A DNA stretch of 40,422 bases, from positions 1 to 40,422 of IMG/VR virus record IMGVR_UViG_3300008952_000113; one strand, 5' to 3'. The stretch is from a virus. The notes beneath the pieces were generated by a model. It saw only the letters and a list, made by a program, of their open reading frames with translations, did not search any database and was not told where the DNA came from. A program made the position numbers and the translations under genes. Shown here one piece after another: positions 3,653 to 35,806 of the stretch; within the stretch, counting starts at the first letter, position 1; each line of letters starts with the position of its first letter.

Positions 3653-6600
3653 CCTAAAACCCTGAAGTTATGATATATGCTGCGTGTGGAGAATCCCCAC
3701 TGCTCGCTGAAATCTAACTTCGCCATATAAGGTCGGTTGATTTGAATTCTATCTCTGTGTTCTTTAACTCCCCAGCACTTGATGTGTGTGAGGACGCTGT
3801 TCTCATCCACGACCTCGATAACCCAATAGGTCTTGTCGTTTTTGGTCTTTCGTGCCGTCACTTTCCGTGGGACAAACCACACCAAGTTCAAGTCGGGGTC
3901 GTAGTCTGAAATTGCTGGGACGCAATATTCCTTTAATCTTTGTTGGATGGGCTCATCAACGACAAGATGGATTGGAAACACGCCAGTTAAGCTGGCCAGA
4001 TATTCAATCTTCTCCTCGATGGCAAAGTCTCCCTCTGGCGCATACATCTCAATGTTTTCTTCTAAGTCCTTCTCTTTCCGGGGGCGTTCGACTGCCACCG
4101 CTGACCAGTAATGTTTAAGACCAGTGAACCGATCATCCATCAAGCAATTCAATGCTTGGCTTCTCACCAAGACATCCAAAGCTTTCTTGTTGAGCTTGCT
4201 GTATACCATGTCCTCGTTGAAAAGAAAGTCCTCAATTTTATGGAAAGGTCTGCCATTGTAGATTTGTTCAATTGCCGACTCACCAAGTCCCTTGATGGAA
4301 GTGAGGGGTTGAATGAGGGCGTTGCCATCATCCGAGATTTCCCATACCCTTCCAGACGTGTTGACGTTTAACTTCTCAATACCAAACCCCAAACTCTTTG
4401 CGACATTGATTGCGGCCTCTTTTCGCCCTTCGGGCTCTTTGTCGAGAAATGCTGCCATCCATTCAACTGGATAATAGTTGAGCAGATGAGCACACTGATA
4501 AGATAGTGTAGCGTAAGAAACCGCATGTGATGCGTTGAAGCCATAACCTGAGAAGAATTCCATTTTCTCCCACAGTTCCATTGCTTGTTGCTCAGTAATT
4601 CCCTTGTCGACACATCCGTCAACAAACTTTAGTCGGATCTTTTCTAGTTCTTTGGCGCCTTTGCCTGTTCCTTTTTTAGTTAATAGCTTGCGAAGGGCAT
4701 TGCCCTCGTCCAAAGATATATCACGACCAAGTTTGTGGGCTAGCAAAGCCAGCTGTTCTTGGAAAATAATGAAGCCATAAGTTTCCTCAAGACACTCTTT
4801 GATGACTGGATGGACATATTCAATTTCTTCTGGGTTTTTTATTGCCTTCGCATAACGCTTGGCAACACCTGCAGACAGCGGGCCCGGTCGATAGATCGCA
4901 GTGATGGCTGACAGATCTGCAAGACTTGTGGGCTTCGTATCTTTGCAGAATTTTTGTGCCCCATCTTGAGTGAATTGAAAAACGCCAGCCCATTTTCCTT
5001 TATGGAAGATGTTCTTCCACACTTTCTGATCACCAAAGTCAATCGTATCTGGGTGAAGGTGTTCCTCGTAATACGCTTTCACCTGTGCGAAAGTTGGCTC
5101 CGGTATATCATGCTTCCTTATTAAGATGTGACGTATCGCTCCCTCAATCATGCGAAGTGAAGCGAGTCCCAAGATATCAAACTTAATAAAGCCCATGGGT
5201 TCCAAGTGACGAACGTTCTGTCCCTCGCTCCACGGTGTCTGCCGGACGCCACCGGATGATATGAGGGGCATGTGATGGTCGAGGTTCTCGCCCACCAAAA
5301 TTCCACCAGCGTGGCGTGAACAGCTTCGAGTACTCCCAAAGATTCTCAACACATGCGTCTTTACTTGAGGGTATTTGTTCAAGAAAGCCTTGAGACTATC
5401 TGAATATTCTAATACCTCTTCAAAGGTTGGGGCGTATACACCTGCAGCAATTCCATTAGCTTCCTTCGCTCTGGGTGTTGCCTCGTGGATCATCTTACTT
5501 GTGACACCATTGGCCTCAGCGAAGTCGATGTTGTAAAATTTGGAGATGTCTTTGATGAGTGATCTCAATTGGAGAGTGTTCCAGTTAGAGATGGGAACCA
5601 CAACGTTGTCTCCCCATTCCTTAATGAACATATCTTTTAGTTCCATCGGATCGGCCACATCATAATCAATATCAGGGTAGTCTACTGTATCCTTCCGTAA
5701 GAATCTCTCGAACTGAAGGTTGTATTTGATGGGATCAATTTGAGTAATGTTAAGACAGTAGGCGATGAGCGAACCTGCGGCTGAACCTCGTCCTGCGCCT
5801 ACAAGCTGGGCCTCTTGTGCCTTGTCTGAAATGGCCCTCATAGTCAAAAAGTATTTACTAAAACCTCTGGAGCTGATAACATCAAACTCTTGTTCAATTC
5901 TCTCCTCGTAATTTTTCTTTCCGGTGAGGCCACGCTTTGCAAGACCGTCGCGGGTGAAGTCCATCAAAGCGTCGTCTGCAGTCACACCTTCTGGCACAAC
6001 GAAATCAGGAAGTCGCACCGTGTTGTCGGGAAAGAAAGACTCAATCTTTTCGTGGGCAATTTCATACGTTCGCTCGATGCTGTCCAAGATTAATTGCTCA
6101 TCATACTCCACGCCTTTGGGGAAGAGTGGTGTGTCCTTCTCCCGATAAATCCAATTGTCTGGCTGAGAGTATTTGCGATATGCTTCGAGCATCTCATCAC
6201 CGTTCTTGGGGTATAGTTCGCACCGAGTCTCATCGATAGTGTCGGGCAGCGTTGCCTCAGTGAGTCCCTTACCAAGCCAGCCCAATTTCTTATATAGTTC
6301 GCGGTCCTTCCATGACGCTTTGTCTGGGTAGTGGCTGTCCGAAGTCGAGACAAGTTGAATGTCCAACTCTTCGCACACTTTAATTACAAATTTGTTTATG
6401 GCGTGTTGGTCGGGAATTGCATTCCACTGAACTTCTCCGTAAAAATTATCTCCGAAGATTTCTTTGAATCTGGTGGCTGTCTTTTTCATCTCCTCGTAGA
6501 CGGCCTCTTCGCCCTGTTCACGCTTGGCCCAATAGTTACTTGCAAAGGCGCCGCCCATACAGGCACTACAAACAATCAACCCCTCGCCATATTTCTCCAA

Positions 6601-15830: not shown

Positions 15831-15906
<76 letters not shown>

Positions 15907-24831: not shown

Positions 24832-27105
24832 TTAATGTCCTGGGGTTGGGTGGGGGTGATAGTTGTCAAGGAGGGGATCGGATGTTTGGGCGGCTGCGGC
24901 GGAGGTGGGGCCTCCGGGTCGGTTAGCTGCGGCAGCTGCTAATTGTTCCATTGATCGTGCGGTGGATATATTTGCTGCAGCGTTTGCTTTTTGCAGCGGA
25001 GTCTCCTCGGATTTGGAAGTGAGTTGGTCTATCCATTTGCCGATGTTTCCACCTGCCCACCCTCCTGCGACTCCCAAGACACCGGAGGCAGCGCCGCCGG
25101 CTAGCAACGATGCACCGCCGGTGGGGATGGCTGAGATGCCAGCTGCGCCCCATCCTGCGACGCCTCCACCAACGGCACCAAGAGAACTAAGTGCTGCTTC
25201 CCAGGCCCCTATCTCACCTTGGTGGTATGCCCAGGCATTCATCGCTGGACCTGCCGCTAAACCAACACCGCCCAGAACTCTCGCCGCAACCGCAAATTTT
25301 GAGCCGGCATGAACAGCAAACTTGGCGGCTTTCGTAGCGTCCAACACCCCTTTTTCGGCGGCCGCCATTTGGGCCGGCGTTGTGGTCGGAGTATTTTTGG
25401 CCCACATTAGTGCACTCTCGGCTTGGGCCTTTGCGGCTAATAAGGTCGCGTGTTTCCCATGGCTTGCCCCTCTTGCCAGCTGGTACGCGCCGCCGCCCAA
25501 CAAGCCTGTGCCGGCGCCGGCGAGTTTTATTGCACCGAGGCCGGCAGCACCGACGCCGGCGATGCTCCCCACGGGGGGTATATACTTGGGAGCATTGTCC
25601 GCAATGTTTCTCAGGGAGTTCATAACCTCTGCACCAGCATCCCCAAACGCTTTAGCGCCGGCGCCCTTGAAAAAAGCCGCAATTGACTCCACTGCAGTCA
25701 TGGATCTTCTTGCAATCGATATCTCTGATTCACCCAGCCTCTCCATCTCTGCTTTAACTTGAGCGATACTCCACTTGCCGCTTATAAATTTCTTGAACAC
25801 ATCGGGCGTTACATTAAACGCAGAAGCGAATGCATCTAACTCGGCACCATAGATGGACGAAGCCTCTTTACCAGTTGCGCTGAACATGTTTCGCACCATC
25901 TTTAGGGCCTTGAGTGGCTCCCCTTCCGCATATGCTGCGCGCATGAGAGATATCGGCTCTGCAACTCCTCGACCAAGAAGGGAATTCAATTTAGCAGCGA
26001 ACTGTGCTGATCCTTCTATTGTTTTGAGGGAGTCAGTGAAGTCTAAAATGGAAGTTGTAGGGACAGCAAGACCTGCTGCAGCAGATGAGATTTTCAAAAA
26101 ATTCCTCTCTACGTCGCGACCATAAATAGCAAGCCTTGGGAGGGCCTCTTTGAAAGCGGCCATCATTTCGCCAGGAGATTTTTTCATGGCACGACCCATC
26201 TTAATAACATTACGCTCAATCTTAATTGCTTCTGTTCCGGTTTTTCCAAAGACCAAGTTCAGCTGGGCAAATGCTGTGGCACTATCAGCTACACCAACTC
26301 CAAACGTTTGCCATGTCGCAAAGGATTTACCAATGCTGCTAATGTGTGAGTCTGCCATTTGCATCGTGGGGAAGGCGGTGTGTAGTGCGTTAAGAGCCGA
26401 CGGCAGATCTGCATTAATTGCAATCATTGGCGCAAATGCCTTCGTCAGCTCAGGGCCCATTTGCTTTGCGCGGCCAGTCATTTTATTATAATTGGCCTTC
26501 ATATCCTCTATGCTGAACGCTGTCTTTATAGCCAGAGCAGCACTAACCTCGGCTGCCTTTATGATAAAAGAGGTTCCTATCTTTCCAGCTGAGAACGTGC
26601 TCGATATCTCTTTTTTAAATCTCTTTGCTTCTTCGCTATTATCTTTAAGGGCGTTTTTTAATTTAACGAAGCCGCCAAACATGTCTTTCTGGATGCCTAG
26701 AAAACCACTGGCGTTGGCTGCTAAACCACCAAGAACCTCAAGATTTTCTTTCTGGGCTTCAGTCTGCTTATCAAGTTCCTTGGTGCCTTTTTTGAGGGCT
26801 TTTTCTTTTTTCTTCTCAAGGGCGATTCGATCCTTGATGCTGTCTGCTTCTTCTGCTTTAATCTCAAGACTAACTGCTTCCAGTTCATTCTTAATTTTTA
26901 ATTGATCGATGCCCGCAGTAGTTACAGCAAGCTTGTTTTGTAGTTCAATTTGCTCTTCCTTAAGAAGTGCAATGCGGGCTTTGGATGCTTCTTCCTCTTT
27001 AGCCTCTGCGTCTGCCGTCTGCTGTCCAGTGGAAGTCGAAAATGTCGCAATTGCATCGTTAAGATCTTTAATTGCTTGCGTAAGTTTCTTTCGGTTTTGA
27101 CCCAT
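24832..27105 (-). CDS. Tail tape measure protein
   Basis: This encodes 757 residues. Residues 1 to about 140 are a long Lys/Glu/Ala coiled coil. The middle is helical, and about 510-545, 600-620 and 635-690 are Gly/Ala-rich hydrophobic segments (for example GVGAAGLGAIKLAGAGTGLL), typical of tape measure proteins that enter the host membrane. The C-terminus is a low-complexity Ala/Pro/His tail. It sets tail length and helps DNA delivery. At roughly 1.5 angstrom per residue the tail would be near 110 nm. It follows the tail tube, chaperone-like and small conserved genes, as expected. Confidence 0.82.
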   Translation of the reverse strand: MGQNRKKLTQAIKDLNDAIATFSTSTGQQTADAEAKEEEASKARIALLKEEQIELQNKLAVTTAGIDQLKIKNELEAVSLEIKAEEADSIKDRIALEKKKEKALKKGTKELDKQTEAQKENLEVLGGLAANASGFLGIQKDMFGGFVKLKNALKDNSEEAKRFKKEISSTFSAGKIGTSFIIKAAEVSAALAIKTAFSIEDMKANYNKMTGRAKQMGPELTKAFAPMIAINADLPSALNALHTAFPTMQMADSHISSIGKSFATWQTFGVGVADSATAFAQLNLVFGKTGTEAIKIERNVIKMGRAMKKSPGEMMAAFKEALPRLAIYGRDVERNFLKISSAAAGLAVPTTSILDFTDSLKTIEGSAQFAAKLNSLLGRGVAEPISLMRAAYAEGEPLKALKMVRNMFSATGKEASSIYGAELDAFASAFNVTPDVFKKFISGKWSIAQVKAEMERLGESEISIARRSMTAVESIAAFFKGAGAKAFGDAGAEVMNSLRNIADNAPKYIPPVGSIAGVGAAGLGAIKLAGAGTGLLGGGAYQLARGASHGKHATLLAAKAQAESALMWAKNTPTTTPAQMAAAEKGVLDATKAAKFAVHAGSKFAVAARVLGGVGLAAGPAMNAWAYHQGEIGAWEAALSSLGAVGGGVAGWGAAGISAIPTGGASLLAGGAASGVLGVAGGWAGGNIGKWIDQLTSKSEETPLQKANAAANISTARSMEQLAAAAANRPGGPTSAAAAQTSDPLLDNYHPHPTPGH

Positions 27106-27117
27106 TCACAAGACCCC

Positions 27118-27453
27118 CTATTTAAAAGGCCACTTAATGCCAGTTGATCTTTCAAACTTCTTGACTGCAGAGTCTAAAGAGTATTTGCTACGATATGTCT
27201 GAGGGTTGTCGAGGCCATACTTTTTATACTTTAGGAGATAGTCTTTTTCTTTTCCCAAAACTTTTGAGAAATCGCGGACTTGTGATTGGGTGCCTTTAAC
27301 GGTAACAGGAATAGATGCTCCGCCAAACATGCTTCCCATGATTTTTTCAATTGCCCACCCGAACATGCGAAGAAAACTCTCATCAAGTTCGCCTCGTGAC
27401 ATAGAATTCAAATCAATATCTATTTCTTGCAATTCGCCACTTGTGTCATTCAT
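27118..27453 (-). CDS. Small conserved tail-region protein
   Basis: This encodes 111 residues. The start at 27453 is preceded by GGAGG at seven bases. The protein has an acidic N-terminus, a helix containing RGELDESFLRMFGWAIEKIM, a short beta segment (IPVTVKGTQSQV), and a basic helical C-terminus. It lies between the gp26-like/chaperone reading frame and the tape measure gene, a place usually held by tail assembly factors. I do not recognise a named family. Confidence 0.65.
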   Translation of the reverse strand: MNDTSGELQEIDIDLNSMSRGELDESFLRMFGWAIEKIMGSMFGGASIPVTVKGTQSQVRDFSKVLGKEKDYLLKYKKYGLDNPQTYRSKYSLDSAVKKFERSTGIKWPFK

Positions 27454-27530: not shown

Positions 27531-27719
27531 CTATGATCTTCGCTTGGAAGATTGCGACATATTTTCGCTTTCTCTTTCTTTTTGTTCCACGAGCCTTTTA
27601 ATAAACCAGCGTCGTATTTTGATGGGAAGGGTGTATGCTTCAGCAAATGACCAATTTCCGTGATATTTTAAGACGAAAATCTCTTCATATACTGATTGGA
27701 TGTAATCATTGTCGAGGCC
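27531..27719 (-). CDS. Frameshift extension of the gp26-like protein
   Basis: A 62-codon open frame without a usable start codon continues from the T7 run at 27720-27726 to a TAG at 27531. It begins GLDNDYIQSVYEEIF and contains KYHGNW, LPIKIRRWF and a charged tail. If the ribosome moves +1 on the seven T residues (GAG TTT TTT T-GGC), the upstream protein would lose its last four residues and gain this extension, giving 351 residues in total. The coding-like composition and the lack of ATG, GTG or TTG near its beginning argue against separate translation. A one-base homopolymer error in the assembly would give the same picture. Confidence 0.6.
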   Translation of the reverse strand, partial: GLDNDYIQSVYEEIFVLKYHGNWSFAEAYTLPIKIRRWFIKRLVEQKERESENMSQSSKRRS

Positions 27720-28587
27720 AAAAAAACTCGGCAGTAACAGGAACCTCCAGGTCCTGTCGGTGATCGCAGCTAGAGCAATGAAATTCTTGAGTCATATCAA
27801 TGTTGGGGATCAATTCCACATATACGCTCCGCAAGAACTTGGAATCTAATGCTGGCATTACATCAACAAATTTTCCAATAAGGTCTCGATCCTCCACCCC
27901 GTCGACGCCCACAATAATGGCCTTAAGGGTATCGGTTAAAAAGGATTCTGGAAGACCTTTCTTTTCTTTCCTCTTGCGAAAAGTCTCAAGGTTTTCCTCG
28001 TCAACGCCGGTCATCAGTCTTATTTCCACTGCATGGCCGCTCTTCGGCAACGTAATAATAAACGTTCCCTTGTCCGTCACTTCCACGTTCTCAAGCTCGT
28101 TGTTCAAGTCTTCTGCGTTGTGGCCGGCTCCGATGATTTCAGCATCCAATAAATCAAATGAGAAGTCAGTTTCAATGCCGCATGCGGGGCATGGAAATTT
28201 TGTTTTATAGTCGGCTCCATAGCCTGAGATTCTTGCCGCAACGGTGATCGCATTGCGATCACCCACGAGAAGATCTCTAATTTGCACATTCTCATCAACA
28301 ATTAGACTTTCGAGAAGTCTATCGATTGTCACCCCCTTCTTGATCAGAGATTGTGATGCCAATATATCTTCCTCTTTGGCTGTCATATGTTTCATCTCAA
28401 TAGAATCAACCCCACATAGAGGATGGTTTTTGGGATAATATAAGCCACGAGAAGGAAGATCAACAAATTCCGTGGGAACTGTAAAATTTAATCCTGGGCT
28501 TTGTGGTGGTTGTGTATTTTCTTCTGGTAAATCATCAGCCGAGTTCGATGGTTTTCGAACCCTTGCTTTATTATTTCTTGATGACAT
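27706..28587 (-). CDS. gp26-like baseplate/tail assembly zinc protein
   Basis: This encodes 293 residues in the unshifted frame. An unordered Pro-rich N-terminus leads to VDLPSRGLYYPKNHPL (about 42-57), seen in the T4 gp26/T4_baseplate family. Two CxxC pairs follow: CPAC near residue 133 and CSSC near 270, so a zinc ribbon is likely. It lies between the tail tube and tape measure genes, the classic place for tail assembly chaperones. The frame ends four codons after a TTTTTTT run; a +1 shift there would enter the 62-codon extension at 27531-27719. Start ATG at 28587 follows GAGGTG. Confidence 0.7.
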   Translation of the reverse strand: MSSRNNKARVRKPSNSADDLPEENTQPPQSPGLNFTVPTEFVDLPSRGLYYPKNHPLCGVDSIEMKHMTAKEEDILASQSLIKKGVTIDRLLESLIVDENVQIRDLLVGDRNAITVAARISGYGADYKTKFPCPACGIETDFSFDLLDAEIIGAGHNAEDLNNELENVEVTDKGTFIITLPKSGHAVEIRLMTGVDEENLETFRKRKEKKGLPESFLTDTLKAIIVGVDGVEDRDLIGKFVDVMPALDSKFLRSVYVELIPNIDMTQEFHCSSCDHRQDLEVPVTAEFFWPRQ

Positions 28588-28620: not shown

Positions 28621-29190
28621 CTATGGCTTTGGAACAAAAAGTGATGGGCCAGTGACTCCGGAGAGTTCCGCCCAATCATACCTAAGTACTAATTCGATGG
28701 TGCTCAGGTCCTCAGATTCATAATCAAGCATACTAAAGTTGGCTTGTTGAATCCATGCATTTTTTAAGATCCACGTTTCGATTTCATCATTGGTAGTGTC
28801 GCCCAATTGTATGATTTTGACATCTCCCAATGCTTTGATGGCGGCCGCTTTATTGATCGTGGTTGTGTCGGTTGATGGACTTGATGGAATCTCATAGCCA
28901 GACTCTTTCAAAATCTGGGCCGTTGCTGCTGCAGCATCGGGATTGACGGGATCAACCAAAGTAATAGTTACATTTTCCCACTCCACTCTTCCCGGATAAT
29001 GGAAAGTGTGATTTATATATTTGTGTGCCGTTTCCGTCACAGAGAATTTTGGCTTGTCTGCTTTGGAAGCGAACCATGTGGCGTTACCGCCGCCATATCC
29101 CTCGCCTGATCGGGCTGCGATGCTGACTTTAAACCTATACGAACGTTTAGGATCTTGATTTGGGCTTGTCCAAAAATTTTCTACTGCCAT
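28621..29190 (-). CDS. Tail tube protein (T4 gp19-like)
   Basis: This encodes 189 residues. The all-beta pattern of the gp19 tube family is visible: N-terminal YRFKVSI, then KPKFSVTETAHKYINHTFHYPG, WENVTITLVD, a helix, and C-terminal NFSMLDYESEDLSTIELVLRYDWAEL. The subunits stack as hexamers to form the inner tube through which DNA passes. It follows the sheath gene directly and has ATGAGGAG upstream of its ATG. A short ACTATTTATG sequence upstream (near 29224) partly resembles the phage promoter element but lacks the second block. Confidence 0.88.
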   Translation of the reverse strand: MAVENFWTSPNQDPKRSYRFKVSIAARSGEGYGGGNATWFASKADKPKFSVTETAHKYINHTFHYPGRVEWENVTITLVDPVNPDAAAATAQILKESGYEIPSSPSTDTTTINKAAAIKALGDVKIIQLGDTTNDEIETWILKNAWIQQANFSMLDYESEDLSTIELVLRYDWAELSGVTGPSLFVPKP

Positions 29191-29242: not shown

Positions 29243-32200
29243 TTAATCGTCAAAAGATGCTCCAGTTCTTTGAATAACAAAATCAATTGCAATAAATTCA
29301 ATAGATCGTGCTGGTTGCAAAAAGATTTTTGCATACATTATATTCCTATCAATAAGATCTGGAGTGGTCGTGGTTTTGTCAAGAACAATCTTATAGTCCG
29401 TGAGACCTAATTGGGACTGTACTTCCCTTAAAAACGGATCTGCTTGTGCGATAAACCTATTCCACGTTGCCTCGGTATTACTACCAAACAACAGCCTTGA
29501 CGAAATGTTAGAAATTCCTTTCTTAACATACAGCATCATTCTTCGGACGTTTACTCGGTCAAGAGCCGAAGGAGTGGCTTGGAGCGTCTTCTGCCCAAAG
29601 ATCACAATACCTTCTGCCGGGAATTTAGCGATTGGGTTCACATTGTTCTCGTAGAGTTTATCTCTCATCTTACGAGTCAAGTGTTCTCGAACACCAATCA
29701 CAGGGATACCCGCTGCTCCATCGGATAAGCCGCCGCGAGTAAATCCTGCTGGCGCAAACCATGGTGCTGACTTCTTGTCGGTGCTGGCGAAGGTGCCAAG
29801 AGCCGCGATAGAAGGGGGAACCCATAAAATCTTTCCAGATCCGAATTCATCCTTAGTTTGTACCCAAGGATAATAAGTGCATGCATAACTGTTATTTAGT
29901 GCGCGGGTTTTGAGGTCGCCAACAGTCGTATCAACCGATCCTACGCGGGAGGAAGCGGCATTATTGTTCTCATACTCAGTTTCATAGCCACCCTCTAAAT
30001 CAACAATCGCAAGAGCATCAGCGCGCTCTTCGCAAACATTCATCAAGTGGGTTGTTAGTGACGAGTTCGTCACACCAGGAACGGTGGCCAGATTAATGTC
30101 CACAACTTCTGGATCTGCTACAGTGTCAATCGCTCTCTTGACTGAATTAAATGCATAATCATTATATTCAGTTTTGCCGTCGGTTCGAGAGTTGGCGATG
30201 GGCTCTTTATCAAAAATATCAAACCCGTCAAATCCTCCAGCCAATGGTACGGTAAATTTATTAAATCCCGCGTCCAGCGTAAGATCATAGCCCCTTGCAG
30301 TTGTCCCATCTGGGTTTGCCAAGGATGGACCGCCTGCAGAGATAGAGTCTCCTGCATCGTACAATCCGGATGCATAATAGGCTTGATTTTCAACTCCATC
30401 TGAACCGGAGACGATTGCCACGTCGTCCAAAGTAAATGTAAAGCTTGCTGATTTTTCCACACTTGTCGGCATGTATCTTGATAAATCAATATAAGATCTC
30501 TCAAAGTTGCCATTTGATCTTTGGTCTGTAGTGAGACCAAAATAAGCAAGCGTTGGGTCACTGAATCCTCCGGTTGAAGAACTCACGCGAAGGGCCATCT
30601 TGGGGCCCTGGAAGTTGAATCCGAGTTCGCTCGTTCCAGCGTTGCCCGAAATAACTCCGGGACTTGCCACATGCGGAATGGTAGTGGACAAAATATCCGA
30701 TAATCCGGTGTCATCGTTAAGGGTTCCGGACGCATGTTGAAACGTTTGCGGGCCCTCAAATCCAAATGGCAGAAGCGAGGCATCTTGAGGGTATCCCATC
30801 GCAACATAAATATATCGTGATTGATTGTTATAATCGCCAAACTCAGTAAAGCGGCGCTCAGTGTCTGACCATGTGGCATATTTGTCACCAATCTTAACTG
30901 AAATAAAGTCCGCAGAATTTGGATCTAAGTTACAACCAGAGAAGGTCTCAAGGACTATCTTGTTTGCGTCGGTGTCACGACCATCGCGAACCTCCACAGT
31001 AAAGGTTCCATATTCATTAAAGTCTGGGTTTCGTGGTGCTGCAATATCTGTAATAGAAATCTTAACATTTGAATTTGCCCACTCGCCTGAATCTAGAGCT
31101 TTAAGTTGGAAAAGGGGATGGCTGTTGTCAGATAAATCCTTCTGACTTATAATCATACCAGTCTCTGCGGCTTGAGAGCCGACCTTTCTACTTGCGCCGC
31201 TGTTGATGCCTGCAATAAATGCTGCAGACCTTCCGGTGGCGGTGGCATCTGAGCCAGCGACATCATAAAGGTTTCTTTCAAAGGTTTCCCCCAAAAAGTA
31301 AGTCATCGAGGTATCAGAGGTCACGGGCCCAAGAAGGGTTGGATCAGTATTGAAGACTTTCCTGATGTGGAAATCGCTTCCCTTGTCAAAGTTGAAGGAG
31401 GCTGTCAATACAGAGCCAGAGGTTTCGTTTTCGATGATAGCCTTAAATTGGAAGTTGGGGCCATCGCTTTTAATTAATTCACAAGTGGATTCTACGTCAG
31501 TGCCTTCGGTGTTCTCTCCCTTGAGTCGGATCGATCCCTCGTTAAGATACCAAATGGCAGCCAAGGTTCCGGCGCCAACTGTATCATCGGCTCCCCCGCT
31601 GAAAAGTGTGTTCGCAGGAGAAGTTCCAGTGAGCGACGACGTGAGGCTGTAAAGATTCGCGTCCGCATCTTCTAGAACGGATGTTATGGTCACAGTAGCC
31701 GAAGAGTTGGGGCTGCCAGCTGGGCCAGTTGCAGTGGCGATGGCCGTGAAATCAGTTGATGCGGAAGCTGCAATAATCGCAACAATTGCATCAGCACTAG
31801 CTTTGGCAGTGCCACCCTTTGCGAACTTATTCGGAGCATCTGGTAATGAAGCTGTGCACGTAAAGGTGTAAGTGGAGGCTCCATCTAGAACTAGAGGATC
31901 GCCCTCCTCCATTGTATTATCATCAAGAGTTAATGTCGCAGTGGAACTAGCTGAGGCGGTGTAGTCGGCGACCCACAAACCCATTGCTCCACCGTTGGTG
32001 CCGCTGTCCACAGTAAGTGAAGTTTTTTCTGTCTCCCAACCCGCTTGGCCATCGGTGGTGGCTGCTCGGTTGTCCTCACCCAAGACGCGGACTACAGTTA
32101 AGGGGGTGCTGCTCTTGAGCCATGCTCGTGCGGCATAAGGGGCATACATTGTCGAGGTTCGGTTTCCGTCTCGCCAAATGTCTCCGCCTTCTCCGCCGGG

Positions 32201-32389
32201 TACAGGATTTCCAAAAAGTTCAACGAACTCCAAGAAAGAATTAACAGTAACGGGGCGCATTCCAGGGCCGCGCTGGGTGCGGCCAATGACGGCTGGACCT
32301 ACAGGGCCACCTTCCTTGGGAAGCTGAGATTGATCGATTTCTTTTAAGAAAACTCCGGGCGAAACAAAACGATACTTTTTAACTGACAT
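29243..32389 (-). CDS. Tail sheath protein (T4 gp18-like), enlarged
   Basis: This encodes 1048 residues from ATG at 32389, which has AAAGGAGA upstream; the open frame extends nine codons further without a ribosome site. The N-terminus (YRFVSPGVFLKEIDQS) and the stretch GPAVIGRTQRGPGMRPV are typical of contractile sheath proteins. The C-terminus (RNIMYAKIFLQPARSIEFIAIDFVI) is the conserved core that binds the tube. T4 gp18 has 659 residues, so about 390 extra residues are present. Much of this lies in a Ser/Thr/Ala/Gly-rich insertion at about 105-330 that looks like an added beta-sandwich exposed on the surface. Confidence 0.9.
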   Translation of the reverse strand: MSVKKYRFVSPGVFLKEIDQSQLPKEGGPVGPAVIGRTQRGPGMRPVTVNSFLEFVELFGNPVPGGEGGDIWRDGNRTSTMYAPYAARAWLKSSTPLTVVRVLGEDNRAATTDGQAGWETEKTSLTVDSGTNGGAMGLWVADYTASASSTATLTLDDNTMEEGDPLVLDGASTYTFTCTASLPDAPNKFAKGGTAKASADAIVAIIAASASTDFTAIATATGPAGSPNSSATVTITSVLEDADANLYSLTSSLTGTSPANTLFSGGADDTVGAGTLAAIWYLNEGSIRLKGENTEGTDVESTCELIKSDGPNFQFKAIIENETSGSVLTASFNFDKGSDFHIRKVFNTDPTLLGPVTSDTSMTYFLGETFERNLYDVAGSDATATGRSAAFIAGINSGASRKVGSQAAETGMIISQKDLSDNSHPLFQLKALDSGEWANSNVKISITDIAAPRNPDFNEYGTFTVEVRDGRDTDANKIVLETFSGCNLDPNSADFISVKIGDKYATWSDTERRFTEFGDYNNQSRYIYVAMGYPQDASLLPFGFEGPQTFQHASGTLNDDTGLSDILSTTIPHVASPGVISGNAGTSELGFNFQGPKMALRVSSSTGGFSDPTLAYFGLTTDQRSNGNFERSYIDLSRYMPTSVEKSASFTFTLDDVAIVSGSDGVENQAYYASGLYDAGDSISAGGPSLANPDGTTARGYDLTLDAGFNKFTVPLAGGFDGFDIFDKEPIANSRTDGKTEYNDYAFNSVKRAIDTVADPEVVDINLATVPGVTNSSLTTHLMNVCEERADALAIVDLEGGYETEYENNNAASSRVGSVDTTVGDLKTRALNNSYACTYYPWVQTKDEFGSGKILWVPPSIAALGTFASTDKKSAPWFAPAGFTRGGLSDGAAGIPVIGVREHLTRKMRDKLYENNVNPIAKFPAEGIVIFGQKTLQATPSALDRVNVRRMMLYVKKGISNISSRLLFGSNTEATWNRFIAQADPFLREVQSQLGLTDYKIVLDKTTTTPDLIDRNIMYAKIFLQPARSIEFIAIDFVIQRTGASFDD

Positions 32390-32519
32390 TGTGAAATCTC
32401 CTTTTTGACGACTCATCTCTAAAAATGAGCATTACAATACTATTATATACCATATTAATTAGTATTTAGGATTTTCAAAAGCCCAAAAAGTGTTTTTGCT
32501 GGCCAATAAAGCGGGTTTT
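32390..32519. other. Intergenic region before the sheath gene
   Basis: The 130 bases hold no gene. On the minus strand an AT-rich stretch (CCTAAATACTAATTAATATGG, seen in parts as CCTAAATA and TATATAATAG at 32439-32448) may contain a late promoter for the sheath gene. It lacks the AAAAGGGG block of the element seen at 1.5 and 40 kb. A weak inverted arrangement (AAAACCC/GGGCTTTT) after the upstream stop may be a poor terminator. Confidence 0.4.
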
Positions 32520-33338
32520 TTAAAGAAGGTCTAAATCATCCTCTCCCAACATGGTCCTTTCGCGGGGGATTTTTACCTCAACAGCATTCTCCCGGCGGAC
32601 AATAAATGGCTTCTCTTGGTTCGATCCCTGACCGATGAGATGAGCCAAAACTCGAATGTTAATTTCGGTCTCATACATGCGCTCTTCCTCACCCATATCT
32701 TCTACATTGCTTGTGGAAGTAAAATCTGAATCTACGAAAGCCTCATAGGTGTGACCTTCGTTATCTATCAAAAAGTGGTTTATATTCCCGGTCTTAGTCA
32801 TAAAAGGTTGTAGCAAATCATTCATTTGTTGTTGATATTCGGTGCGGATTTTTACAACATAACTTGCATTAATGGAGACGGGAAAGGGAATGGTTATTGT
32901 TTCATATACAATCTTTTCATTTTTCCTCGGAAAGTTTAGCTGGCCGGTTTGCTTGAAGGAATCAGCATTTGCAAAATTTGCTGTTTTTTTCTGGTTAATC
33001 ACTCTGGTAATTTCAAAGGCGCCTCCCTTGGCATCGGGATCGGGGGGAATGTTGGCCCATGCCACACCCTTTCGGGTCGGGTCTTTTTCAAAGCCGGCTC
33101 TTTCAAGCGAAAGCAGAGGCAGAATAAGGGCCCCTTCTTTATCTCTCATCTCTTTGCTGCGCTTAGATTGAAAGGCTCTTTCGGCCGAGACCCAAATGAC
33201 TGGCACCTTTTTGTACCCTCGATTGGTGGTTGTAAACAGATCCATTTCTTCGTCCAGCCACTTAAACAAGGCCATGTCAACATTCTCAATAGTTGAAGGC
33301 TCGAATGTAATTACTTCTCCATCTTTATCTCTTGTCAT
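32520..33338 (-). CDS. Tail terminator/sheath stabiliser (T4 gp15-like)
   Basis: This encodes 272 residues, the same length as T4 gp15. The N-terminal helix (LFKWLDEEMDLF) is followed by KKVPVIWVSAERAFQSKR and an LPLLSLERAGF strand. Near the middle, IVYETITIPFPVSINASYVVKIRTEYQ, quoted here only in part as PFPVSINASYVV, resembles the central strand of gp15. Then comes QQQMNDLLQPFM and a C-terminal beta region. gp15 caps the tail and joins it to the neck. It follows the gp14-like gene by an ATGA overlap, in the T4 gene order 13-14-15-18-19. Confidence 0.6.
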   Translation of the reverse strand: MTRDKDGEVITFEPSTIENVDMALFKWLDEEMDLFTTTNRGYKKVPVIWVSAERAFQSKRSKEMRDKEGALILPLLSLERAGFEKDPTRKGVAWANIPPDPDAKGGAFEITRVINQKKTANFANADSFKQTGQLNFPRKNEKIVYETITIPFPVSINASYVVKIRTEYQQQMNDLLQPFMTKTGNINHFLIDNEGHTYEAFVDSDFTSTSNVEDMGEEERMYETEINIRVLAHLIGQGSNQEKPFIVRRENAVEVKIPRERTMLGEDDLDLL

Positions 33339-35806
33339 TCATTTTCCTCGCTGCTCTCGTAGAAGTTACTTGCATGCCAAGTTCCCCCTTCGTTGAAATA
33401 ATACTTACCCTCATCAATAAAAACACCAACAGGTGAACTACCAGTATACTGTAGATAAATAGCACGTCCACCATAAGATGCCGAGTTTTGATCAAGGCCA
33501 GTCAGAATTGCGTGATCAGGCGCGTGGCGGGCGTCGAGGGTAAGAATATCATGCATATCAGGATAAACCCAATGTTGTGGCTCAGACGGCGGTTCGGTAT
33601 GAAAAAAGTGAGAAGGATGCCAAACCCCACCCTCATTAAAGTAAAACTTGCTTGAAATAGAAAATGGCACCACAGGGTCCTGTGCAACGTGCGACAAATA
33701 AAGAGTCTTTCCAGTGTAAGCAACAGGGTTGTTGGCGTATTCCTCAAGTAAAAGGCGATTGGGGCCATCGCCATCGTCGGCCATAGTAAAAATGCCAGAT
33801 CCCAGTGCCGCGACTGCGACGGTAGTTGTTCCCTCACCGCCCCCTGAAAATTCTAAATTAGCTATCTGCGTGTTGATGGAGTCAATCTGAGATTGGATTA
33901 CTCCTTCGGTAGTAGCAATCAACTCTGTAAGGCCATCGACGTTCGATGCAGCCACATAGGATGCGGTGGTAGCTGTGCCTTGAAACACCCCTCCTTCTGA
34001 TCCCGTACTAGATGCGAGATTAATAGTTTGCTGGAAGTCGTCGTCAGTGAAGAGGTCTTCTTGTGAAATTCCCGCGAGTTCCATGGCATAGGCAGCCCAC
34101 TGAGCTACAGTAATCTCGCTCAACGAATCAACCTGAAAATACTCCATTGCCATTTCGGGGGTCACGCCGAGTCCGACAAGGGTCGCGGGGACGATGTTGC
34201 CATTAATTGACTGTACGGAGATACCGCCGGAGTCTACTTGAAACCTGTTAGTGCCACCGAACCAGATCGAACCTGTGGCTACAAATATTTCTTTGAATTG
34301 CTTAGTGGCGGAGCCTAAATTATACACCTCATCCTCGTCAGGAAGTATATGGCCGGCCACTTGGAGAGACCCTGTGAACTGGTGGGTATCAGCTGAGAGG
34401 TTTCCAAAGCTCGTCGACCCAGAGACATCCAGAGATCCGGTAATGCCTGCGCTGCCGTCAAGTTGGCCATCCCAAGCACCACCGCCGCCTGAAGAATTGA
34501 TCGTTATTTCGTCGCTCGTGGAAGTGATAGTTATATTATCTCCTTCCGCCAGGGTCTTCATATTGAAATTGGCCCCTGTCTTATTTCTGAATACTCCTTC
34601 TCCACTCCCCACATTTGACATGGTATTGTCAACACCGTCGGGGGTTATGATGTTAGCATTTTCACATGCTGTAACTGAATCTAAATCAAAATCGCTGACG
34701 GTGCCTTCAACTTCAGAAAGACGAAAGGTGCCTTCCCTGGCGCGGATGCAGCTTGCCACTATCTCAAATTTCTCATCTATTTTCCCGAAAAGAAGCTTTG
34801 GTTGGCCGACAGTAATGATTTCATAAAGAATGCTGCCGTAAAGGACAAAATCTCCCTCACGAACAAAGAGGTTTTGATCCTCTGTCAATCTCCTTTTGTG
34901 AAATTTAACGTCGATGGCCGACTTCCTGTCGATACCATAGCTCGTTGTGGTGGTTTCACTACCTTTCCACTCAACGGCTGCGAAAACGTGGATGGGGGGC
35001 AGAAAAGTTTTATTAATCGCCTCTCCGTAAAGTTCGTGAAAGTCTGAATTCGGTACTGATATTGGGAAGTATACAACTTGCTGACCCACAACCCTTTCAA
35101 GAACTTCGTCATTAACTTGTTTTACCAAGTTTGATTCTTTTCTTCCTGTGAAAAGTGGAGGTGGGGGAGTTCCGGGTCTTTCATAGACCTCTCCGCAAGG
35201 CTGTTCGCCAGAACCTCCTGTACTCGTAGTGTCGCCCGTCAGCACCCTAATTTCTTCAATCGGATCGCATGCGGGGGGTGCAGTATATCGCGGATCGTCT
35301 TCTTCGGGGTCTGGATATGATTCTGATGGGAAAGATCCGTCTCTGGCGCGGACACATTGGGCTGAAATTTCCACCTTGGTGGCCACTTGGCCGAAAAGAA
35401 GTGTTGGTTGCGAGAGTTTCACAATCTCGTACTTCTGCTCTCCATATTGGATGAAGTCGCCTTCTCTGACAAATAGATTCTGGTCTTCGGTTAGGCGTCT
35501 TTTGTGAAAGTGAATCGTTACTTTGGATTGCTTATCAATCCCGAAGCCGGTGGTTGTCGTCTCTTCACCTTCCCACTCAGCGAGCACCTCAACGTGGATG
35601 GGAGGAAGGTAGGTTTTATTAATTGCTTCCCCATAAAGAGGGTGAAAGTCAGAGTGCTTAATACTAATCGGGTAATATAGGATTGAAGTCCCTATTACTC
35701 TTTCGATCACCTCGTCGGCAACCTGCTTTACAATATCTTTTTCTTTTTGCCCTGTAAATAGGGGAGGTGGTGGGGCTTCAGGTTGCTTCCACTGATTATC
35801 TGACAT
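33335..35806 (-). CDS. Neck protein with duplicated gp14-like domain fused to fibre-like domain
   Basis: This encodes 823 residues. Two copies of a ~148-residue domain (12-159 and 214-361) are about two-thirds identical by hand alignment and share HKRRLTEDQNLFVREGDF. The pattern GDFxxYGxxxYEIxxxxxPxLLFGQ resembles the C-terminal part of T4 neck protein gp14. After a linker, a beta-rich fibre-like stretch (ITGSLDVSGSTSFGN, YNLGSATKQFKEI) and a coiled-coil-like helix follow. Two short repeats (GKTLYLSHVA...YFNEGGVWHPSHFF and GRAIYLQYTG...YFNEGGTWHASNFY) end the protein. It may combine the neck and whisker (fibritin) functions. It overlaps the gp15-like gene by four bases. Confidence 0.6.
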   Translation of the reverse strand: MSDNQWKQPEAPPPPLFTGQKEKDIVKQVADEVIERVIGTSILYYPISIKHSDFHPLYGEAINKTYLPPIHVEVLAEWEGEETTTTGFGIDKQSKVTIHFHKRRLTEDQNLFVREGDFIQYGEQKYEIVKLSQPTLLFGQVATKVEISAQCVRARDGSFPSESYPDPEEDDPRYTAPPACDPIEEIRVLTGDTTSTGGSGEQPCGEVYERPGTPPPPLFTGRKESNLVKQVNDEVLERVVGQQVVYFPISVPNSDFHELYGEAINKTFLPPIHVFAAVEWKGSETTTTSYGIDRKSAIDVKFHKRRLTEDQNLFVREGDFVLYGSILYEIITVGQPKLLFGKIDEKFEIVASCIRAREGTFRLSEVEGTVSDFDLDSVTACENANIITPDGVDNTMSNVGSGEGVFRNKTGANFNMKTLAEGDNITITSTSDEITINSSGGGGAWDGQLDGSAGITGSLDVSGSTSFGNLSADTHQFTGSLQVAGHILPDEDEVYNLGSATKQFKEIFVATGSIWFGGTNRFQVDSGGISVQSINGNIVPATLVGLGVTPEMAMEYFQVDSLSEITVAQWAAYAMELAGISQEDLFTDDDFQQTINLASSTGSEGGVFQGTATTASYVAASNVDGLTELIATTEGVIQSQIDSINTQIANLEFSGGGEGTTTVAVAALGSGIFTMADDGDGPNRLLLEEYANNPVAYTGKTLYLSHVAQDPVVPFSISSKFYFNEGGVWHPSHFFHTEPPSEPQHWVYPDMHDILTLDARHAPDHAILTGLDQNSASYGGRAIYLQYTGSSPVGVFIDEGKYYFNEGGTWHASNFYESSEENE
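34724..35167 (-). repeat. Second copy of duplicated neck domain
   Basis: This codes residues 214-361 of the neck-fibre protein. It aligns without gaps with the first copy at 35330-35773, with an offset of 202 residues. Confidence 0.85.
35330..35773 (-). repeat. First copy of duplicated neck domain
   Basis: This codes residues 12-159 of the neck-fibre protein. It shares about 96 of 148 residues with the second copy (hand count), including a run of 18 identical residues. Confidence 0.85.

Follow-up and report, generated by a model that had tools for sequence, protein, structure and literature searches.

Phage lambda makes two forms, gpG and gpGT, from one gene that precedes the tape measure gene, and the longer form carries a C domain that is encoded out of frame and reached by a -1 shift (PMC5009743). 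The same recoding review treats T4 as an exception to G-T frameshifting and regards the chaperone frameshift of the haloarchaeal myovirus HSTV-2 as 'very likely +1' (PMC5009743). As related by papers that cite it (PMC12846349, PMC10885494), the study of Vladimirov, Gautam and Davidson (2022, doi 10.1016/j.virol.2021.11.003) identifies gp26 and gp51 as tail assembly chaperones; several T4-like groups are reported to frameshift, with signals that one of these citing papers gives as -1. T4 itself uses two genes.

A further point of comparison is prfB (RF2), where a P-site YUU slips to UUU at CUU_U; there the A site holds a stop codon, and an SD element precedes the slip codon by 3 nt.

Here we describe a locus in a virus sequence of 40,422 nt (IMG/VR virus record IMGVR_UViG_3300008952_000113, positions 1-40,422; the whole of this stretch is called the window below). 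With T4 gp26/gp51 and their frameshifting relatives it shares the family (PF12322), a proposed pair of short and long chaperone forms and a poly-T signal, but its predicted shift is +1, at UUU_U/UUU_C, and it belongs to a separate deep clade. It is likened to lambda by arrangement, the predicted direction being opposite, and to HSTV-2 by a putative +1 shift in the tail chaperone gene of a myovirus. As in prfB, a P-site YUU would slip to UUU (some homologues carry CUU_UGG), but the A site holds UGG and the SD-like UGGAGGU lies 16 nt upstream. To judge from sequence comparison, a T4-type tail assembly chaperone is very probably extended to its long form, TAC-NC, by a programmed +1 slip on UUU_U, UUU_C or CUU_U. 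A preliminary description of this DNA, made from its letters and open reading frames, called a +1 shift on a T7 run uncommon and knew of none in gp26-type genes. According to the citing literature, frameshifting in such genes had already been reported for T4-like phages in 2022, though with -1 signals. A +1 slip on UUU in a gp26-type gene, and a sister clade shifting in the opposite direction at the same codons, were not found in the literature searched and look new.

The gp26-like gene and its extension

The minus strand of the window carries a contractile-tail module, composed of a sheath-like protein, a tail tube protein, a gp26-like protein, a small ORF and a probable tape measure protein:

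29243-32416, minus strand: probable tail sheath, 1057 aa, upstream neighbour (by position; a sheath is the equivalent neighbour in relatives)
28621-29190, minus strand: tail tube protein, upstream neighbour (PHROG 4542 tail tube, E 7.9e-25)
27706-28587, minus strand: gp26-like protein (T4_baseplate, PF12322, by profile match), 293 aa, proposed short form TAC-N
27743-27749, minus strand: conserved SD-like UGGAGGU, 16 nt upstream of the first TTT (-23 to -17), from its anti-SD pairing energy
27720-27726, minus strand: slippery site TTT TTT T (codons TTT TTT TGG), with a proposed +1 slip at the second Phe codon (UUU to UUU), which precedes UGG, from the junction 9-mers
27709-27719, minus strand: two-frame overlap, 0-frame TGG CCT CGA CAA stop and +1-frame GGC CTC GAC..., from the +1 Gly-Leu and the CCT bias
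27531-27719, minus strand: start-less +1-frame extension, 62 codons and stop, proposed C domain of TAC-NC (weakly DUF6760-like, three helices)
27118-27453, minus strand: 111-aa ORF between extension and tape measure, without Pfam or PHROG match
24832-27105, minus strand: probable tape measure protein, 757 aa (by position; without Pfam or PHROG match)

Elsewhere in the window, positions 33335-35806 encode an 823-aa protein whose N-terminal half holds two copies of a unit PPPLFTG..KE..., SDFH.LYGEAINKT.LPPIHV, and a tRNA-Gly gene (anticodon TCC) lies on the minus strand at 15831-15906.

As first described, the gp26-like frame ends shortly after GAG TTT TTT TGG, its 3' end reading ...GCC GAG TTT TTT TGG CCT CGA CAA TGA. 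The extension begins in the +1 frame with GGC at 27719 and runs for 62 codons to a stop at 27531-27533. It is indeed start-less: ATG, GTG and TTG are absent between the upstream stop and extension codon 20, and none occurs before about codon 55, where the first Met stands. The +1 frame is already open for 22 codons upstream of the junction, and base composition gives an open stretch of 62 codons a chance of about 1.4%; by itself such a stretch is weak evidence, and it is homology that makes it decisive. Among the main ORFs of the window, TTT TTT T occurs in frame only at this T7 run.

The gp26-like protein matches PF12322 (T4_baseplate) well above the cut-off (56.2 bits against 24.5, residues 62-290) and PHROG 150 (baseplate hub) with E 2.5e-16, and its AF2 model has a pLDDT of 89.7. 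Its N domain has no sequence relative in the PDB. The best three of 834 aligned PDB chains, all aligned on residues 25-132, were 3fgx, 3klu (the XkdN-like tail chaperone YqbN) and 2ob9 (HK97 tail assembly chaperone), with Z scores of 6.2, 5.7 and 5.1 over 79-88 residues, a modest similarity that is too low to stand alone. The extension is modelled as three helices (pLDDT 90.5). Its match to DUF6760 (PF20546; E 1.3e-4, 22.4 bits) falls under the cut-off of 27, so that it is not a member by profile, and it shows weak kinship to the C part of a bacterial fusion locus (L112) that does pass PF20546. A profile comparison with the C-terminus of T4 gp51 was not significant, though the two aligned at the expected place. 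DUF6760 was not named in the literature searched.

The gene thus lies between a tail tube, identified by PHROG 4542, and a tape measure identified in the window by position alone; in the phages immuto, SP-15 and LIS04 the gene after the extension is annotated as tape measure. The suspicion that the extension serves a long form of the tail chaperone is supported by the tail tube upstream, the conservation of the extension and the relatives' tape measure downstream. Homology to gp26/gp51, the place before the tape measure and the modest fold similarity together suggest a function in tail assembly as a chaperone.

Conservation of the two-frame junction

Homologues were fetched with peptides or by tblastn of the gp26-like part, so that the junction itself was not selected for, and the census comprises 99 homologues with a readable junction from independent contigs and cultured phages. 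In every one of them (99/99) the two parts are split, nearly always at the same Phe-Phe codons, with the extension in the +1 frame. The junction 9-mer is TTTTTTTGG in 86, TTTCTTTGG in six and TTCTTTTGG in two; the remaining five junctions differ and belong to distant members (L009, L012, L013, L014 and L102). A further, more distant set of about 25 loci also keeps the extension at +1, mostly at TTT TTT CGT or TTC TTT CGT. The extension had been called protein-like on first reading, and this is borne out: its protein sequence is conserved across about 100 homologues, and it is under purifying selection (median pN/pS 0.195, 159 pairs). Used alone as a query, it retrieves its counterpart in Microcystis phage Mel-JY01 (E 4e-7), where this directly follows the gp26-like gene.

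Public records treat this region unevenly. The extension is missed, truncated or given a doubtful start, as in SP15_046 of SP-15 (L014) and immuto35A_232 of immuto (L010); it is an unannotated gap in LIS04 (L013) and an overlapping ORF in Mel-JY01 (L008). One contig (L120) changes frame midway inside the extension, probably through a contig indel.

These data bear on the main alternative raised at the outset, namely that the true sequence has six T residues and a single continuous frame. Homopolymer runs are error-prone, and the two parts are indeed fused in some bacterial loci. However, the same two-frame layout recurs in about 100 independent contigs and cultured phage genomes, including junctions that lack a T7 run (TTTCTTTGG), and the 0-frame end has a conserved WP and stop of its own; in 88 of the 99 the 0-frame ends at the sixth or seventh codon, counting from the first Phe. 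Because all homologues are two-framed, with a +1 extension and a conserved site, an assembly error can be regarded as excluded.

By the same reasoning it is very unlikely that the extension stands as a gene of its own, reached through termination-reinitiation or through a non-standard start immediately past the gp26-like stop. Such an organisation does exist among relatives: in a 595-kb jumbo phage (L011; LR756511, about 3760-3920) the extension is its own gene behind the gp26-like gene, with a TAATG-coupled ATG, a TAATG overlap also occurs in Pseudomonas phage Cygsa01 (L109), and many homologues carry an ATG at extension codon 7. Yet in 30 of the 99, the window included, no ATG, GTG or TTG lies between the upstream stop and extension codon 9. 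Natural fusions of the two parts also speak against a separate gene, as do the residues that directly follow the T run. In all 94 homologues with TGG, the +1 frame reads Gly-Leu right after the run, while the 0-frame residue after Trp varies between P, S, V, L and F. Where the latter is Pro, its codon is CCT in 87 of 87 cases, against a CCT background of 27%.

Site, direction and upstream element

The fixed Gly-Leu, retained despite a variable 0-frame residue, implies that the +1 frame is already read at this point, and the predicted shift is thereby localised to TTT TTT T. In five homologues (L020, L090, L094, L099 and L102) the +1 frame has a stop one codon upstream of FF. The second slip codon is TTT in 92, CTT in six, CTA in one and TTC in none of the 99 (Phe elsewhere is 76% TTT), and a YUU followed by U permits P-site re-pairing one base forward. 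The preliminary description had placed a +1 shift on the T7 run. The +1 frame holds in 99 of 99 homologues, but the run is broken in some of them and is only 3-4 long in ten of the 99. The slip is therefore better seen as tRNA-Phe (or tRNA-Leu on CUU) moving off YUU onto UUY, and less well as something peculiar to a T7 run.

The same variants weigh on two other routes to the extension frame. RNA polymerase can slip on T runs, and an mRNA with six U would join the two frames, but the ten homologues with short runs keep the same arrangement; the CTT and TTC variants, which break the run, make transcriptional slippage extremely improbable. A ribosomal -2 slip, as in phage Mu, would reach the same frame. 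On TTT TTT T, re-pairing of UUU two bases back is feasible, and SD-like elements are known for backward shifts, so that the upstream element might pull the ribosome back. We nonetheless consider -2 slippage decidedly unlikely: at TTC TTT TGG and TTC TTT CGT it would put the Phe-tRNA on UCU with a middle mismatch, whereas a +1 movement pairs perfectly. From these comparisons we infer for this junction that a shift occurs and that it is +1 rather than -2.

Neither of two familiar signal types describes the site. The canonical -1 signal (X XXY YYZ, here U UUU UUN, with a -1 extension) is absent, as the junction reads GAG TTT TTT TGG and the extension is at +1. The prfB arrangement is likewise absent, and the SD-like element, 16-19 nt upstream, is too far away for a prfB-type effect. 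This element is conserved beyond the amino-acid requirement: its anti-SD pairing energy is about -6.8 kcal/mol, against -3.3 kcal/mol in synonymous controls, and codon -7 is GAG rather than GAA by 51:3, with a background of 638:1159. As to other stimulators, RNA structure downstream gave no signal with simple shuffles (z about -0.2 just after the site, -0.99 in a longer window), an Rfam search gave no match at the junction, and the A site holds neither a stop nor a clearly rare codon (UGG is 11 per thousand in the window).

In only four of the 99 members of the +1 clade does the codon before TTT TTT end in T, where 42.8 are expected. Asp codons at this position are GAC 46 times and GAT once, against 594:1223 elsewhere, and the lone GAT is followed by TTC; the bias persists when the set is thinned to below 72% identity (36:1). 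Because the homologues are related, the p value of 5e-21 overstates independence. The simplest reading is that the +1 clade avoids the -1 heptamer U_UUU_UUU.

In a distant subgroup that keeps the +1 extension (L135, L136, L138, L140, L141 and L145), the junction reads TTA/CTA TTT/TTC AAT CCC AGT. In these six loci CCC AGT is conserved and UUU is not, and the slip may have moved to CCC_A.

A sister clade with the opposite frame

In cyanophage-type phages a homologous extension lies at -1; the junction is T-TTT-TTC in all 63 distinct sequences. Rhizobium and Aeromonas phages, and also L146-L151, likewise have it at -1. The scan of this clade used a single protein as query, the alignment being too divergent. 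The extensions of the two clades are homologous (hhalign E 1.4e-7), and so are their N domains, through FF (E 8e-13). In a tree of 74 N domains, a branch with 98% SH-aLRT separates the +1 from the -1 side; the tree is unrooted, and long branches meet there. In the -1 clade an SD-like GGAGG(G) is nearer by two codons, at about 9 nt from the heptamer. An SD spacing of about 9 nt stimulates -1 frameshifting in dnaX.

Joined forms exist as well. In two bacterial tail-like loci (L112, L113) and a GC-rich one (L111), both parts form one ORF joined at the same FF, and the single ORF of L112 scores above the cut-off for PF12322 as well as for PF20546 (28.7 bits, cut-off 27). Bacterial contractile tail-like loci in which DUF6760 stands beside PF12322 have a related C domain, but as one ORF (L111-L113) or as a -1-frame ORF (L232), not at +1 as in the window. 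In L232, the last part of the PF12322-like gene is overlapped at TCGGGGGAATCATAG by the DUF6760 ORF (E 8e-15), which lies in the -1 frame and has no ATG, GTG or TTG before its conserved part; a G-run frameshift in such loci is possible.

Judging from these sequence patterns, the gp26-type chaperone probably falls into two deeply separated clades whose frameshifts at one Phe-Phe pair go in opposite directions, each clade being locked by synonymous choice against the other direction. On the cyanophage/T4 side the signal would be U_UUU_UUC for a -1 shift, the SD-like element preceding it by about 9 nt; on the side of the window it would be (not U)_UUU_UUU_UGG for a +1 shift, and there the SD-like element stands farther upstream by two codons.

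How might the +1 slip yield two proteins? We envision that most ribosomes stop after ...EFFWPRQ and release the short form, TAC-N. In a fraction of ribosomes, the tRNA-Phe at the second Phe codon of UUU UUU UGG would re-pair from UUU to UUU one base forward, GGC would then be decoded in place of UGG, and translation of 62 codons would give the long form, TAC-NC (...EFF-GLDNDYIQSVYEEIF...). The short and long forms would bind the tape measure and the tail tube in tail assembly, as homology, synteny, a weak resemblance to the HK97-type chaperone fold and analogy to lambda G/GT suggest.

For a long time T4 was counted as the exception to a nearly universal frameshift in tail chaperones. A large group of T4-type relatives, mostly environmental contigs, appears to frameshift +1 where sister lineages shift -1. 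If the two-clade reading is true, UUU_U/UUU_C would define a class of +1 programmed frameshifts that is independent of a stop codon, and the site of the window would offer such a case with a sense codon in the A site. The pair of clades would also constitute a natural experiment, in which the direction of the frameshift is set by the single base flanking UUUUUU on each side and by the SD spacing, and it would provide an annotation rule for a domain that public records truncate or miss, as in SP-15, immuto, LIS04 and Mel-JY01.
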